Source: an uncultured Geobacteraceae bacterium (GTDB lineage: Bacteria; Desulfobacterota; Desulfuromonadia; Geobacterales; Pseudopelobacteraceae). Taken from it: 35,493 bases of DNA. Under the pieces are notes generated by a model, which saw only the letters and a program-made list of their open reading frames with translations, was not told the DNA's origin and ran no database searches. Positions 26,919 to 30,920 of this stretch are shown here, piece by piece. Position 1 is the first letter of the stretch. Each line of letters begins with the position of its first letter. Location: positions 1 through 35,493 of the forward strand of contig CAIUSO010000070.1 of NCBI GenBank assembly GCA_903901875.1, written 5' to 3'. The position numbers and the translations under genes were made by a program.

Positions 26919-28364
26919 TTACTCTCCTCCCGCAACTTCCTTCTGTTCCTTCTGTTCGCGGAGCAGTGCTTCCTTAAGCTGATCTGCGGTAATCGGCATT
27001 CCGCTCATCTGTAGCTGCAATATCTCCGATTCGTCAAGATTGCTGATGAGGGTGACAGGCCCTTTAATTACATCGGTTGTGACAGAAGCCATCCGGTCAA
27101 ACTTGAATCTGACGTTTTCGTGTACTATTTTAATAACATTGACCTTGGGGTTGGCATTTTCGTACGTGTGACTGTTAACTTCCTGAAGTTGTGTGGAGAG
27201 CCGGTTTCTTTCGGTCATGAAGGCCATCAGATCCCGTTGGTTGGGGGGGGCAGCTGCGAATTGCTCGTTCAATTCGATCAGTGAATGGTTAAGTACCTCA
27301 ATCATATCGTAATCATTGTAATTTACGCCGACAATGACTGCCGTCGGCAGTGAGGTTTTTGAGCCGATAATCGTGGCTTCCAGCCCCCCCAATGCTATGC
27401 AGGTTCCTCCGCAGAACGCACCTTTGGTGACGGTCAGGGTGCCGAGACAGTTGACTCTGCTGTTGCGGATTTCGATCTGTGCGGTGACATTTCCTGCACA
27501 GGTTATGGAGGTGTCGTTACAATACTTCAGGGCCAGGTCGCCGCCGCAGCTTATTTTCCCCACCCCGGCTCCATTCATGCCGTTGATATCAATGTTGCCG
27601 TTTGAGGTGATAAGTGCGTTACCGACGATACCACTTACCTTGATGCCCTTTGTTGCGAATATCTCAAAACCATCTAAAACGTCACCGGTTACCTCCACAA
27701 GACCGTTGTATCGGATGTTCCCCACATGGTAATCAACTTTTCCCTTAACCACATAAACGTTTTCAACGGAGAGCCCTTCCGGTGAGTTAAACACCCGTCC
27801 GGATCGATTGGCATAGAGGGTCTTGCCATCTTCTCCCATGAAAATTCCCTTGCCATATCGGACAATCAGCGGTTTTCCCGGAATGGCAGGTATGGGTTTC
27901 GACTGTACGGTTATACCATCCACACCGTCACTGCACTCATGGATGATGCCAATTGGGTCATCTGCTTCAACATTTTGAAACGTCTGGATTTTTTTAAAGT
28001 TAACCCGTGTGTAACGCCGGAGTTCGTTTTCCTCTTCATCATTTTCATCTACCAGGGCATCGGGGACGATCATTTCGAACCAACCGTCTATTCCCGGTTG
28101 CATCGCTTCCCCCAGTGCCAATACAACACCTGAAACCGGTTTGTTGTCAGTGGCAGCACTCACCACTAAATTTATACCCTCATCATTGAGATGTTCGGTT
28201 ATGGCATGGATTTCCAAAAACTCCCGAAGCCCCTCCTCGGTGATACCTGCCCCGCTTTTGGCAGGAGTATAGCGTCCCGTACAGAGTGTTGCGTTGTCCA
28301 GTAAATCCAGGCGCAGGGTGTAACCGGCCTGTACCAGATCGTATGAGATGTTTTCACCTGCCAC
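26919..28364 (-). CDS. FapA/DUF342 family protein
   Basis: The 481-residue protein begins at GTG 28364, inside the last codons of the HD-GYP gene (11-base overlap). N-terminal ~1-190 is the FapA domain (GDGVDGI-like CSDGVDGITVQSKPIPAIPG, GKGIFMGEDGKTLYANRSG). A Gly-rich right-handed beta-helix follows (GLVEVTGDVLDGFEIFATKG; GNALITSNGNIDINGMNGAG; SRVNCLGTLTVTKGAFCGGT). The C-terminal ~110 residues include a helical part and a KEALLREQKEQKEVAG end. In Vibrio, FapA links sugar uptake to polar flagellum placement; the role in this lineage is unknown. It is the last gene of the riboswitch operon. Confidence 0.87.
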   Translation of the reverse strand: MAGENISYDLVQAGYTLRLDLLDNATLCTGRYTPAKSGAGITEEGLREFLEIHAITEHLNDEGINLVVSAATDNKPVSGVVLALGEAMQPGIDGWFEMIVPDALVDENDEEENELRRYTRVNFKKIQTFQNVEADDPIGIIHECSDGVDGITVQSKPIPAIPGKPLIVRYGKGIFMGEDGKTLYANRSGRVFNSPEGLSVENVYVVKGKVDYHVGNIRYNGLVEVTGDVLDGFEIFATKGIKVSGIVGNALITSNGNIDINGMNGAGVGKISCGGDLALKYCNDTSITCAGNVTAQIEIRNSRVNCLGTLTVTKGAFCGGTCIALGGLEATIIGSKTSLPTAVIVGVNYNDYDMIEVLNHSLIELNEQFAAAPPNQRDLMAFMTERNRLSTQLQEVNSHTYENANPKVNVIKIVHENVRFKFDRMASVTTDVIKGPVTLISNLDESEILQLQMSGMPITADQLKEALLREQKEQKEVAGGE

Positions 28365-29346
28365 GGTACATGTCTTCAGCCACCCTCACCATGTGGGGGA
28401 TCAGCTGGGGATCAAATTCGGTTCCACCCCGGTCGCTCACTTTTTCCAATACTTTTTGCAGGGGCAATTTGCCACCATTCAATTCCATTTCACTCTCCAG
28501 GGTATTTGCCAGGCTTATGATGGCTGACCCTTGGGGAATGGCATTCCCCGCCAGTCCATCGGGAAAACCGGTGCCGTCGAAGTTTTCATGGTGATGTCTC
28601 ACAATCAGTGCAATATCATGGAGATGTACGATGGTTTCTATCATGCTCTGCCCAATGACCGGATGGGAACGATAGAGGGCATACTGGGTTGCGGACATAC
28701 AGAGCGGGTCCATTTCCGCAACATCGCTGGAAAGGGTGTTCAGGCCTATGTCATGGAGCAGGGCAGCCATTCGGATCTTTTCCAGGTCGGTGGGGGAAAG
28801 GCCAAGGCTGACACCCATGCCAACCGAAATCTCGGCGGTGATGGCTGCGTGGCGTTTTGCCGCCGGCAGGGTCAGGTCTATAAAGCCGGTCAGGGCCCCG
28901 AACAGGGCACTGAAATGCTCCTGGTGATGACGCTGCTGCTCGTGAATTTTATGGAGATCGGTACGTAATTTGCTGTCATCCCGGTACTTGGCAATCGCTT
29001 CCTGCACAAAAGAGAGCATCTCCTGATTATCCCACGGCTTACTGATATAGCGGGTAGCTCCCCCCTTATTGATGGCATCAATGGTAACCTGTATGTCCGA
29101 ATATCCGGTCATGATCATTCGGATCGCGTTGGGGGCAAATTCCTGGGAACGTATCAGAAATTCGGTTCCGGTCATGGCGGGCATACGCTGGTCAGAGACG
29201 ATTACTTCAACTTCTTCTTCGGCCGCAGCAAGCATCTCAAGGGCAAGTTTCCCGGAAGTGGCAAAAACAACCGTATAGGGTTCGCCCCTGAACAGCCGTT
29301 TCAGTGACTGGAGTACCTGCTCTTCATCATCGACAAAAATAACCAT
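28354..29346 (-). CDS. Response regulator with HD-GYP phosphodiesterase domain
   Basis: The 330-residue protein has a receiver domain (1-~120; acidic pocket VDDEE, phospho-acceptor D52 in VSDQRMP, K in SKPWDN) and a C-terminal HD-GYP domain. It has HD at H198-D199 (ALLHDIGL) and HHHENFDGTGFPDGLAGNAI at 251-270. The GYP triad reads GFP (260-262), a tolerated variant. HD-GYP enzymes hydrolyse c-di-GMP, and some hydrolyse 3',3'-cGAMP. It is cytoplasmic. It lies in an operon led by a GEMM-I riboswitch, 15 bases after the REC-PAS gene, so it may form a feedback loop on the ligand. Confidence 0.9.
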   Translation of the reverse strand: MVIFVDDEEQVLQSLKRLFRGEPYTVVFATSGKLALEMLAAAEEEVEVIVSDQRMPAMTGTEFLIRSQEFAPNAIRMIMTGYSDIQVTIDAINKGGATRYISKPWDNQEMLSFVQEAIAKYRDDSKLRTDLHKIHEQQRHHQEHFSALFGALTGFIDLTLPAAKRHAAITAEISVGMGVSLGLSPTDLEKIRMAALLHDIGLNTLSSDVAEMDPLCMSATQYALYRSHPVIGQSMIETIVHLHDIALIVRHHHENFDGTGFPDGLAGNAIPQGSAIISLANTLESEMELNGGKLPLQKVLEKVSDRGGTEFDPQLIPHMVRVAEDMYRGR

Positions 29347-29361
29347 TATTCTCTTTCCCCA

Positions 29362-30390
29362 CTAATTTCTCATATTACGTATGATCGCCCGCTGTTCATC
29401 AGCACACTCGGGGCAGACACCATGGCTGAACACCGCTTCGGAGTGCCGGGATATATAGGCTTCGACCTGCAACCAGCTGTTTTTATCGTCCTTTATTTTC
29501 TTGCAGTATGAGCAGATCGGAATTATCCCCTCCAGTTGTCTGATACGGGTAAGGGCTGCCTCAAGTTGATCTCTCTGTTCTTTTACCAGATCATTGCGTT
29601 TTTGCAACTCAATTTCAGCTTCCTTGAGTGCCGTAATATCCTGAATTGTTCCCGTGACCCGGAGCGGTGCTCCCTGGTCGTCCTGCTCAACCTCAACTCT
29701 TCCCCTGATCCAGAGAGCAGTGCCGATTTTTTCAAGGCGGTATACCATGTCAGAGGAGGCACCGTTGAGCAGGATATCTTCCCATGAGGCCAAAACCATG
29801 CCACGGTCATCAGGATGTATCAGGGAAAAATAGTCTGCCGACGAAAAGTGAGTATCCTGGTCAATGCCGCAGAGGTGGCGTGCTTCGGCGGACCATTCCA
29901 TATCGCCGGTCATGAGGTCAAGGGTCCAGCTTCCTGTCTGAGCGACAGACTGTGCCCGCAGGAGATTCTCCTCACTCCTCCGGAGCAGCTGTTCCGCCTG
30001 TATCTGATTTCGGGTATCTAATTTTTTCTGAAGGTGGTTTTTGATTCGCAGCGTTAACTCAACCCGATCATAGGGTTTGGTAATAAAGTCGTCGGCACCG
30101 AGTGCAAGGGTATGGATGGCATCATCCCGGTTACTCGCTACGACAATAACTGAAAGATGACGTAATTCTTCCGAATTTCGTATGTCAACCAGCATCTTGT
30201 TACCGTTTATAACCGGCATTTCAAGATCCAGCAGAATCAAATCGATATCTCGGTGTCTGGCAAGCAGGTTCAGCCCCTCCAGTCCGTTGCTCGCAAACTG
30301 AAAGTTCCTGAAATTTTCGGAGAGCATATGCCTGAGAATAGCACAGCTCACTTCATCGTCATCAACGATGAGGATCTTAGTCGATTCCAT
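29362..30390 (-). CDS. REC-PAS signalling protein with C-terminal CxxC...CxxC motif
   Basis: The 342-residue protein has a receiver domain (phospho-acceptor D55 in LLDLEMP, K in TKPYD), then a linker helix and a PAS/PAC domain at about 150-262 (AQTGSWTLDLMTGDMEWSAE; VTGTIQDITALKEAEIELQK). A coiled coil leads to a tail LEGIIPICSYCKKIKDD (C293, C296) and HGVCPECADE (C326, C329). There is no kinase, GGDEF or DNA-binding domain. This tail is common in PAS/REC proteins of Desulfobacterota and looks like a metal-binding knuckle pair, but no function is established. It follows the IHF-like gene by nine bases. Confidence 0.87.
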   Translation of the reverse strand: MESTKILIVDDDEVSCAILRHMLSENFRNFQFASNGLEGLNLLARHRDIDLILLDLEMPVINGNKMLVDIRNSEELRHLSVIVVASNRDDAIHTLALGADDFITKPYDRVELTLRIKNHLQKKLDTRNQIQAEQLLRRSEENLLRAQSVAQTGSWTLDLMTGDMEWSAEARHLCGIDQDTHFSSADYFSLIHPDDRGMVLASWEDILLNGASSDMVYRLEKIGTALWIRGRVEVEQDDQGAPLRVTGTIQDITALKEAEIELQKRNDLVKEQRDQLEAALTRIRQLEGIIPICSYCKKIKDDKNSWLQVEAYISRHSEAVFSHGVCPECADEQRAIIRNMRN

Positions 30391-30399
30391 AGGGAGGTG

Positions 30400-30690
30400 T
30401 TAGTTACTCATGCCGTTGATACGCTCTCTCAACTGTCCGCTCAGTTTGAAGGTAACAATCTTTCGCGAGGTAATTGAGACGGTTTCACCGGTGTGGGGAT
30501 TTCTTCCCTTATGTCCCATTTTCTGCCTGATCTCGAACTTGCCGAAACGGTGAATTTTAACCTCTTCACCTGATTTCAGGGTGCTCTTGATTATGTCCAG
30601 AACTTCTTCACACAAGGATAATGATTCTTTGAGCCGGAACCCCATGCGCTCATGGATGTTTTTTGCAATATCCGCTTTGGTCAATGTCAT
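30400..30690 (-). CDS. ihfA: IHF alpha-like DNA-bending protein (HU/IHF family)
   Basis: The 96-residue protein has the HU/IHF fold: MTLTKADIAKNIHERMG opening, IHRFGKFEIR beta-turn and GRNPHTGETVSITSRK on the DNA-binding arm with the conserved Pro that intercalates at the bend. TLTKADI and ITSRKIVTFK are closer to IHF-alpha than to HU. It would bend DNA, probably as a heterodimer with IHF-beta encoded elsewhere. GGAGG before the ATG is a strong ribosome-binding site. It is the first gene behind the GEMM-I riboswitch, and may be a second IHF-alpha copy, since the main copy usually lies near pheT. Confidence 0.88.
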   Translation of the reverse strand: MTLTKADIAKNIHERMGFRLKESLSLCEEVLDIIKSTLKSGEEVKIHRFGKFEIRQKMGHKGRNPHTGETVSITSRKIVTFKLSGQLRERINGMSN

Positions 30691-30769: not shown

Positions 30770-30801
30770 TAAAAAAACCTTCAATAAAAAACTAATGAAG
30801 G
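30770..30801 (-). terminator. Terminator of the GEMM-I riboswitch platform
   Basis: On the minus strand CCTTCA (30783-30778 as TGAAGG partner of 30801-30796) forms a six-base-pair hairpin followed by seven T (30777-30771). It lies between the aptamer and the IHF-like gene. A competing hairpin GGGTG...CACCC (30816-30799) shares bases with both the aptamer's P1 stem and this terminator, giving a plausible switch. Confidence 0.8.
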
Positions 30802-30814
30802 GTGATAATGGCAC

Positions 30815-30902
30815 CCTCTATTTGGCAACCCGACTATCCAAAAACTGGACTCGTGGCTTTGCGTCATCAGGTTACCCTGAGTTTGCTCTTGTTACTTAGA
30901 GG
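30815..30902 (-). promoter_or_regulatory. GEMM-I riboswitch, A20 variant (candidate 3',3'-cGAMP / GEMM-Ib)
   Basis: On the minus strand P1 is closed by CCTCTA (30902-30897) and TAGAGG (30820-30815). Inside is AGAGCAAAC, then a P2 hairpin TCAGG-GTAA-CCTGA with a GNRA tetraloop, the conserved GACGCAAAGCC, a P3 hairpin (GTCCA...TGGA, with receptor-side ATAGTCGG) and GGGTTGCC. This is the order of the GEMM-I c-di-GMP aptamer. The base two before CAAAC (equivalent to G20 of the Vc2 aptamer, the ligand-contact base) is A. In Geobacter A20 variants (GEMM-Ib) prefer 3',3'-cGAMP. The aptamer class is seen directly; ligand preference is inferred. Confidence 0.92.
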
Positions 30903-30920
30903 AAATTATAGAACAATATT

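Follow-up and report, generated by a model that had tools for sequence, protein, structure and literature searches.

The locus

The window, i.e. the whole stretch of 35,493 nt that was analysed, carries a GEMM-I riboswitch aptamer on its minus strand. It is flanked on one side by a histidine-kinase gene (32163-31030) and on the other by four genes in an operon, which code for an IHF-alpha-like protein, a response regulator with a PAS domain (RR-PAS), a response regulator with an HD-GYP-like domain (RR-HD) and a FapA-like protein. The features are as follows:

30897..30903, minus strand: 5' arm of an outer P1 extension, UCCUCUA, strand P (minimum-energy fold, 7 pairs)
30821..30897, minus strand: GEMM-I / c-di-GMP-I aptamer with P2, P3 and three-way junction (RF01051)
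30887, minus strand: A at the position of Vc2 G20, which reads one ligand base (Rfam alignment; numbering according to passages of PMC7288161 and PMC6274999)
30861, minus strand: equivalent of C46, partner of G21 at 30886, c-di-GMP-type scaffold (alignments)
30825, minus strand: C at the position of Vc2 C92 and of C75 in the cGAMP riboswitch (alignment)
30814..30820, minus strand: 3' arm of the outer P1 extension, UAGAGGG, strand A (minimum-energy fold)
30798..30818, minus strand: predicted antiterminator hairpin GAGGGUG/CACCCUU (fold at lengths 120-135)
30771..30801, minus strand: predicted terminator CCUUCA/UGAAGG followed by U7 (fold; similar to a hairpin in the G033 ortholog)
30400..30690, minus strand: IHF-alpha-like DNA-binding protein, encoded by the leading gene of the operon (Pfam PF00216 HU/IHF-like, E 4.8e-26)
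29362..30390, minus strand: response regulator with PAS domain and a Cys-bearing C-terminal tail (Pfam, sequence)
28354..29346, minus strand: response regulator with HD-GYP-like domain (Pfam HD_5; motif alignment)
26919..28364, minus strand: FapA-like beta-solenoid protein (Pfam FapA and FapA_N)

The original prediction had placed the element at 30815-30902, which spans the aptamer plus almost the complete outer arms of P1, and had named as its target an operon led by an IHF-like gene; the Pfam match of the first gene bears this out. Among the NCBIfam models this protein is nearest to IHF-alpha, with 102 bits, which is below the cut-off of 111 for that model. In the RR-HD protein of the window the alignment shows HDIGLN, and LAN in place of VAD, whereas its paralog in the same genome (L086) and the proteins of two other genomes (G124, G131) read HDIGK and VAD; the copy in the sister genome G033 has LAD. 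Since two of the usual motif residues are missing, the protein probably is degenerate as an HD-GYP domain, and the idea of a clear cyclic-dinucleotide phosphodiesterase was rejected.

Upstream of the switch, between 31030 and 35404 (minus strand), there is a run of signalling genes according to Pfam, namely the histidine kinase, a CheX-like phosphatase and two response-regulator/kinase proteins. This run is kept in G033 as far as the compared stretch reaches. The window also contains an M-box magnesium riboswitch (RF00380, 129.5 bits, E 5e-29) at 26254-26089 on the minus strand; it is followed by a gene (26023-24761) whose product has MgtE_N and CBS domains, and then by an Nramp gene (24749-23451).

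Identity of the aptamer and numbering of its core

When the window was searched against Rfam 15 with cmscan, the minus strand from 30897 to 30821 matched the GEMM-I family (RF01051) with 60.8 bits and an E-value of 1.1e-9. The gathering score of the family is 35, and the match spans the full model (positions 1-87 of 87). A GNRA-capped P2, GACGCAAAGCC, P3 and GGGTTGCC follow each other in this order, in line with the original prediction. A model built here gives 82.9 bits, a match by construction as this model includes the element.

The A at 30887 takes model position 11, for which the consensus is G. In the structure line of Rfam, model G12 is paired with C37, the C just 5' of AAAG, and position 11 directly precedes this pair. 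Passages of PMC7288161 give G21, C46, A47, A48, A49 and G50 as contacts in Vc2. Because of these contacts and the structure line, model G12-C37 corresponds to Vc2 G21-C46 and position 11 to G20. For the cGAMP riboswitch, an excerpt of PMC6274999 describes a junction strand A9-A14 directly preceding the P2 closing pair C15-G40, and its A14 is therefore the equivalent of Vc2 position 20. The contacts given for that riboswitch in the relevant part of PMC7288161 include G74, C75 and C76; via this list the C92/C75 equivalent was placed at 30825, the first C of GCC. C75 is described, in parts of PMC9262584 and PMC6274999, as the Watson-Crick partner of the other ligand base. In this numbering the window element reads A20 (30887), G21 (30886), C22 (30885), AAA, C46 (30861), A47 (30860) and C92 (30825). 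The A claimed at the equivalent of Vc2 G20 was thus recovered in the covariance-model alignment with Rfam GEMM-I.

Predicted expression platform

The outer P1 extension, the antiterminator and the terminator are mutually exclusive in the predicted folds, and their succession is the one known from the OFF switch Cd1. The layouts of Cd1, an OFF switch, and of pilM, an ON switch, are those given in sections of PMC9262584. Because the P-A-T-H layout is that of Cd1 and not that of pilM, the window leader is predicted to be an OFF switch, unlike pilM. The antiterminator hairpin itself was also listed as terminator-like. By a crude rule a hairpin and a T run are present in 23 of 25 elements, a few of these being doubtful (L011, L013, C155). 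Covariation as a proof of the P1 extension and the antiterminator had to be rejected, since in the 25 elements the pairing of matched arms did not exceed that of permuted arms: 4347 of 5000 permutations were as strong or stronger for the P1 extension and 1006 for the antiterminator. A search for a sigma-70 consensus promoter remained negative.

Conservation in a sister genome

In G033 the genes are arranged as in the window; the four operon proteins are 79–93% identical, and the corresponding site again carries an A20 switch. The IHF-alpha-like protein is 93% and RR-PAS 79% identical, compared to 62% for the paralog of RR-PAS within G000, the genome from which the window comes. At E 1e-40, RR-PAS was found exclusively in G000 (two copies) and G033 among 39 genomes of the genus, G000 included. 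In the named genome collection 15 loci were confirmed; one of them is 79% identical over nearly the full length, and the next best segment reaches 59%. The G033 ortholog of the window element keeps A20, the other core bases and a terminator-like hairpin, although parts of the leader have changed.

Four pairs of elements could be matched between G000 and G033 by their downstream genes, and base 20 is kept in each: the window element and C185 (A/A), L014 and C56 (A/A), L005 and C102 (G/G, both with U92), and L008 and C33 (C/C, with the downstream proteases 46% identical). In ten other columns about as variable, the mean was 1.5 mismatches of 4, corresponding to a chance of about 0.15 for zero mismatches; the columns comprised the 18 elements of G000 and seven of G033, without C35 of G033, which has an altered 3' half. 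Taken by itself, the retention of base 20 is suggestive and not significant.

Positions 20 and 92 in related elements

All 18 matches to RF01051 in G000 score above the cut-off. Their base 20 is A in seven, G in five, C in five and U in one; U92 is restricted to three of the five G20 elements, and the remaining fifteen elements have C92. Both positions characteristic for c-di-GMP (G20 and C92) are kept in two elements, L004 and L009, exactly one differs in 16, and in no case do both differ. This pattern extends to a wider sample: among its elements on the G21-C46 scaffold, U92 was seen in 13 of 40 with G20 and in none of 35 with another base at position 20 (Fisher p 1e-4, relatedness ignored), suggesting that one deviation is tolerated or favoured and two are not. 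The sample comprised 88 matches, from which two partial and one repeated were dropped, leaving 85; the test left out two elements with A92 or G92 on the same scaffold and eight C21-G46 elements, all G20/C92. It is a non-random sample with all 18 elements of G000, all eight of G033, one match from each of 29 relatives, additional matches from the close clade and those retrieved with the A20, C20 and G20 patterns; a selection for base 20 is not in itself a selection for base 92.

The eight elements combining a C21-G46 pair with G20 (8 of 85; L251 of G035, L258 of G036, L037, L042, L043, L046, L050 and L035) represent the reverse hybrid of the window element.

For a broader view, 141 genomes of the order were searched by exact patterns. 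The usual cGAMP-type core with A20 and C21-G46 (ACYAAA, 16 bases, GRCGGAAAGY) has exact matches in 123 of them and none in G000, which belongs to the 18 genomes lacking a match together with, among others, G033, G029, G035, G036 and G038. A20 on the G21-C46 scaffold is rarer, with 26 exact matches in 14 genomes; on the same scaffold G20 has 85 in 40 and C20 or U20 nine in four, these counts missing elements with other P2 lengths or cores.

Genes following the 18 elements of G000 code mostly for chemoreceptors, kinases and other signalling proteins, some assigned by Pfam and the rest by eye. In G124 and G131, genes for RR-HD proteins having HD, GYP and VAD motifs lie downstream of A20 elements on the G21-C46 scaffold; in G000, an operon with such a protein follows a further element of this kind (L012). 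A second pairing of an A20 switch with an IHF gene exists in G043 (L316, 1376-2549), where the GEMM-I element is followed by a GGDEF gene and then by an IHF-alpha gene. Other A20 elements on this scaffold are located upstream of genes for FIST, Lcl_C, kumamolisin-like or cytochrome-like proteins.

A possible source of cGAMP

As query for the cGAMP synthase GacA we used the ortholog of a relative, which has a receiver and a GGDEF domain (Pfam) and a Ser at the selectivity residue. Its best PDB match is 6d9m (E 9e-60), which we take to be GacA from its title and the subject of the eLife paper. A GAF domain is named only in this PDB title and was not found in the ortholog by Pfam at E 1e-6. At E 1e-80 GacA was detected in 124 of the 141 genomes. 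No match was obtained in 17, among them G000, which is 99.76% complete, and G033, with 95%; of the remaining ones, some are incomplete.

The selectivity residue of the 25 GGDEF domains of G000 (20 read by script, five by eye) is Asp in 23, Gly in one degenerate domain and Thr in one (L082); none has Ser. Similarly, 12 of the 13 GGDEF domains of G033 have Asp and one has Thr. G003, G017 and G035 possess one Ser-type and one Thr-type domain each, among 27 of 29, 19 of 27 and 33 of 36 domains examined, with the residue unreadable in 3, 2 and 4, respectively. L082 (946-2034) codes for a GGDEF protein with a hydrophobic N-terminal half and has matches in 62 of the 141 genomes; all 30 copies that were read (orthologs L116-L145) retain the Thr. 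This residue stands in place of Asp344 of PleD, where a study on Bdellovibrio (PMC9140294) regards Ser or Thr as the hallmark of Hypr enzymes. For G. sulfurreducens, a passage of PMC8835794 reports that deletion of two Ser-type enzymes removed >90% of the cGAMP reporter signal. A cGAMP source in the species is hence possible, with the Thr-type GGDEF protein as a candidate.

Presence of GacA and the bases of the switches are associated to some degree, relatedness being ignored in these counts. When the genomes that have such elements are compared, five of six without GacA contain non-G20 forms vs. 10 of 45 with GacA (p 0.006), and at the element level the figures are 21 of 30 vs. 14 of 90; when the related genomes G000 and G033 are omitted, the latter becomes 3 of 5 vs. 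14 of 90 (p 0.04). The usual cGAMP core is absent in seven of 17 GacA-less and 11 of 124 GacA-bearing genomes (p 0.0015). Yet a simple drift of base 20 following the loss of GacA was rejected, as four ortholog pairs keep base 20, and GacA loss does not explain the diversity at positions 20 and 92, because G035 has GacA and none of the four elements read on the G21-C46 scaffold (of seven matches in this genome) is G20/C92.

Ligand and proposed mechanism

From A20 the original prediction derived a candidate sensor of 3',3'-cGAMP, with reference to GEMM-Ib. One part of it stands: the A at position 20 is real and recurs in the single ortholog that was found, and the binding pocket corresponds to that of a G20A mutant reported as a cGAMP binder. 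The other part does not fit the G21-C46 pair, the missing core and GacA, and the platform predicted as OFF; judged by these features, A20 by itself making the window element one of the Geobacter GEMM-Ib type is not supported as stated. With the GEMM-Ib riboswitches Gs1761, Gm0970 and pilM it shares A at position 20 and C at 92. However, these close P2 with the C21-G46 pair, which is typical for but does not formally define the type, and the window element with G-C; pilM is an ON switch; and GEMM-Ib goes with cytochrome, pilus and polysaccharide targets and the GacA enzyme, in contrast to an operon of signalling genes in a genome in which no GacA was found. With the c-di-GMP-I riboswitches (GEMM-Ia; Vc2, Cd1) it has in common the fold, G21-C46, A47, C92 and the P-A-T-H layout of the OFF switch Cd1, but these have G at position 20.

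All three features, A20, G21-C46 and C92, are united in an engineered G20A class-I aptamer, the parent of which presumably is Vc2. Its structure with cGAMP is PDB 4YB1 according to a passage of PMC7288161, and G20A is reported as a cGAMP binder in parts of this paper and of PMC6274999. Unlike it, the window element is natural, kept in a sister species, connected to a predicted OFF platform and located before an IHF-alpha-like gene. The reverse exchange, A20G, is described as switching a Geobacter cGAMP riboswitch to c-di-GMP. PMC9262584, as far as its relevant sections go, presents cGAMP riboswitches as able to bind c-di-GMP via a protonated adenine and position 20 as a selectivity factor rather than a hard filter. 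At this position A, C and U may all pair with the Hoogsteen edge of adenine, and G would suit guanine. Literature searches for GEMM-I with "position 20" and for cGAMP riboswitch with Pelobacter found nothing.

Our preferred reading, with a probability of about 0.5, is a working hybrid GEMM-I switch, a c-di-GMP scaffold with A20, because G20A is reported to bind cGAMP and A20G to convert the specificity, A20 is kept in G033, U92 was absent from the non-G20 elements of the sample, the P-A-T-H layout is that of Cd1, and the Thr-type GGDEF protein keeps a residue described as a Hypr mark. The aptamer, its bases 20 and 92, the conservation in one ortholog and the operon are established by the analysis; function, ligand, affinity and direction of switching are inferred. 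As the natural counterpart of the engineered aptamer, it would accept 3',3'-cGAMP and also c-di-GMP, the latter less tightly than a G20 aptamer does. Binding would stabilise P1 and its outer extension (UCCUCUA with UAGAGGG), keeping the GAGGGUG strand out of the antiterminator; the CCUUCA/UGAAGG-U7 terminator could then form, and the ligand would turn the IHF-alpha / RR-PAS / RR-HD / FapA operon OFF. In vivo the ligand may be cGAMP, c-di-GMP or both; we slightly favour cGAMP, made by the Thr-type GGDEF protein, over c-di-GMP alone. Against the hybrid reading, neither a GacA ortholog (at E 1e-80) nor a Ser-type GGDEF domain was found in G000, which makes the cGAMP source a candidate only. Moreover, four different bases at position 20 among paralogs could mean weak constraint, and neither covariation in the P1 extension and antiterminator nor a sigma-70 consensus promoter was found.

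A possible though rather unlikely alternative is that the change of base 20 or 92 weakens binding and thereby tunes the threshold of c-di-GMP switches, the 18 switches responding at different c-di-GMP levels and cGAMP playing no part in the species. The lack of both GacA and the usual cGAMP-type core in G000 would fit, and so would the excess of non-G20 forms in genomes without GacA, the properties ascribed to position 20 and cGAMP riboswitches in PMC9262584, and the missing double deviants, which are expected to be very weak for c-di-GMP (about 4900 nM is given for a G20A/C92U double mutant). But base 20 is kept in four ortholog pairs, G035 shows that GacA loss is not needed for diversity, and the counts are dominated by two related genomes.

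Positions 20 and 92 could also constitute a code within one cell, an idea which we regard as doubtful: G20/C92 would read c-di-GMP and the single deviants (A20/C92, C20/C92, U20/C92, G20/U92) a mixed dinucleotide, which A20/C92 and G20/U92 would hold in opposite orientations; for the C20 and U20 forms, even an additional ligand is conceivable. In this case the c-di-GMP scaffold would have acquired cGAMP sensing anew, once the usual cGAMP riboswitches and GacA had been lost, with the Thr-type GGDEF protein as source.

Still less probable is the original prediction in full, with a GEMM-Ib switch dedicated to 3',3'-cGAMP: A20 with C92 and the conserved Thr-type GGDEF in the same genome agree with it, but the element does not close P2 with C-G, as do the crystallised cGAMP riboswitch and the core common in the order, it is predicted to be OFF instead of ON, no GacA was found, and it precedes a signalling operon and not cytochromes or pili. 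A decaying element, with A20 as a chance change in an RNA being lost, is very improbable, since the ortholog keeps A20, the other core bases and the terminator-like hairpin although parts of its leader changed, even if position 20 takes all four bases in G000 and C35 of G033 has lost much of its 3' half.

In summary of its type, the window element is a real, natural A20 GEMM-I switch of hybrid character, kept in a sister species and with a predicted OFF platform, and A20, a known mark of cGAMP riboswitches, is insufficient to assign a ligand. If A20 RNAs bind cGAMP in the absence of GacA, another cGAMP synthase must exist, for which the Thr-type GGDEF protein is the first candidate. With A20, C20, U20, G20/U92 and G20/C92 on one scaffold, a single genome provides a natural test set for the discrimination between c-di-GMP and cGAMP.

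Two loci of G000 illustrate the rarer bases. On contig C89 (L087), two GEMM-I aptamers, both C20, are found about 1.5 kb apart (5473-5395 and 3933-3859), the second directly before a gene whose 1188-aa product contains a protease domain of the papain type (Pfam E 4e-48); the G033 homologue of this gene, 46% identical, also has a C20 element. On contig C12 (L088, 6846-6922), a U20 aptamer, the only U20 among the C20/U20 pattern matches, precedes a hybrid kinase with a Cache domain.
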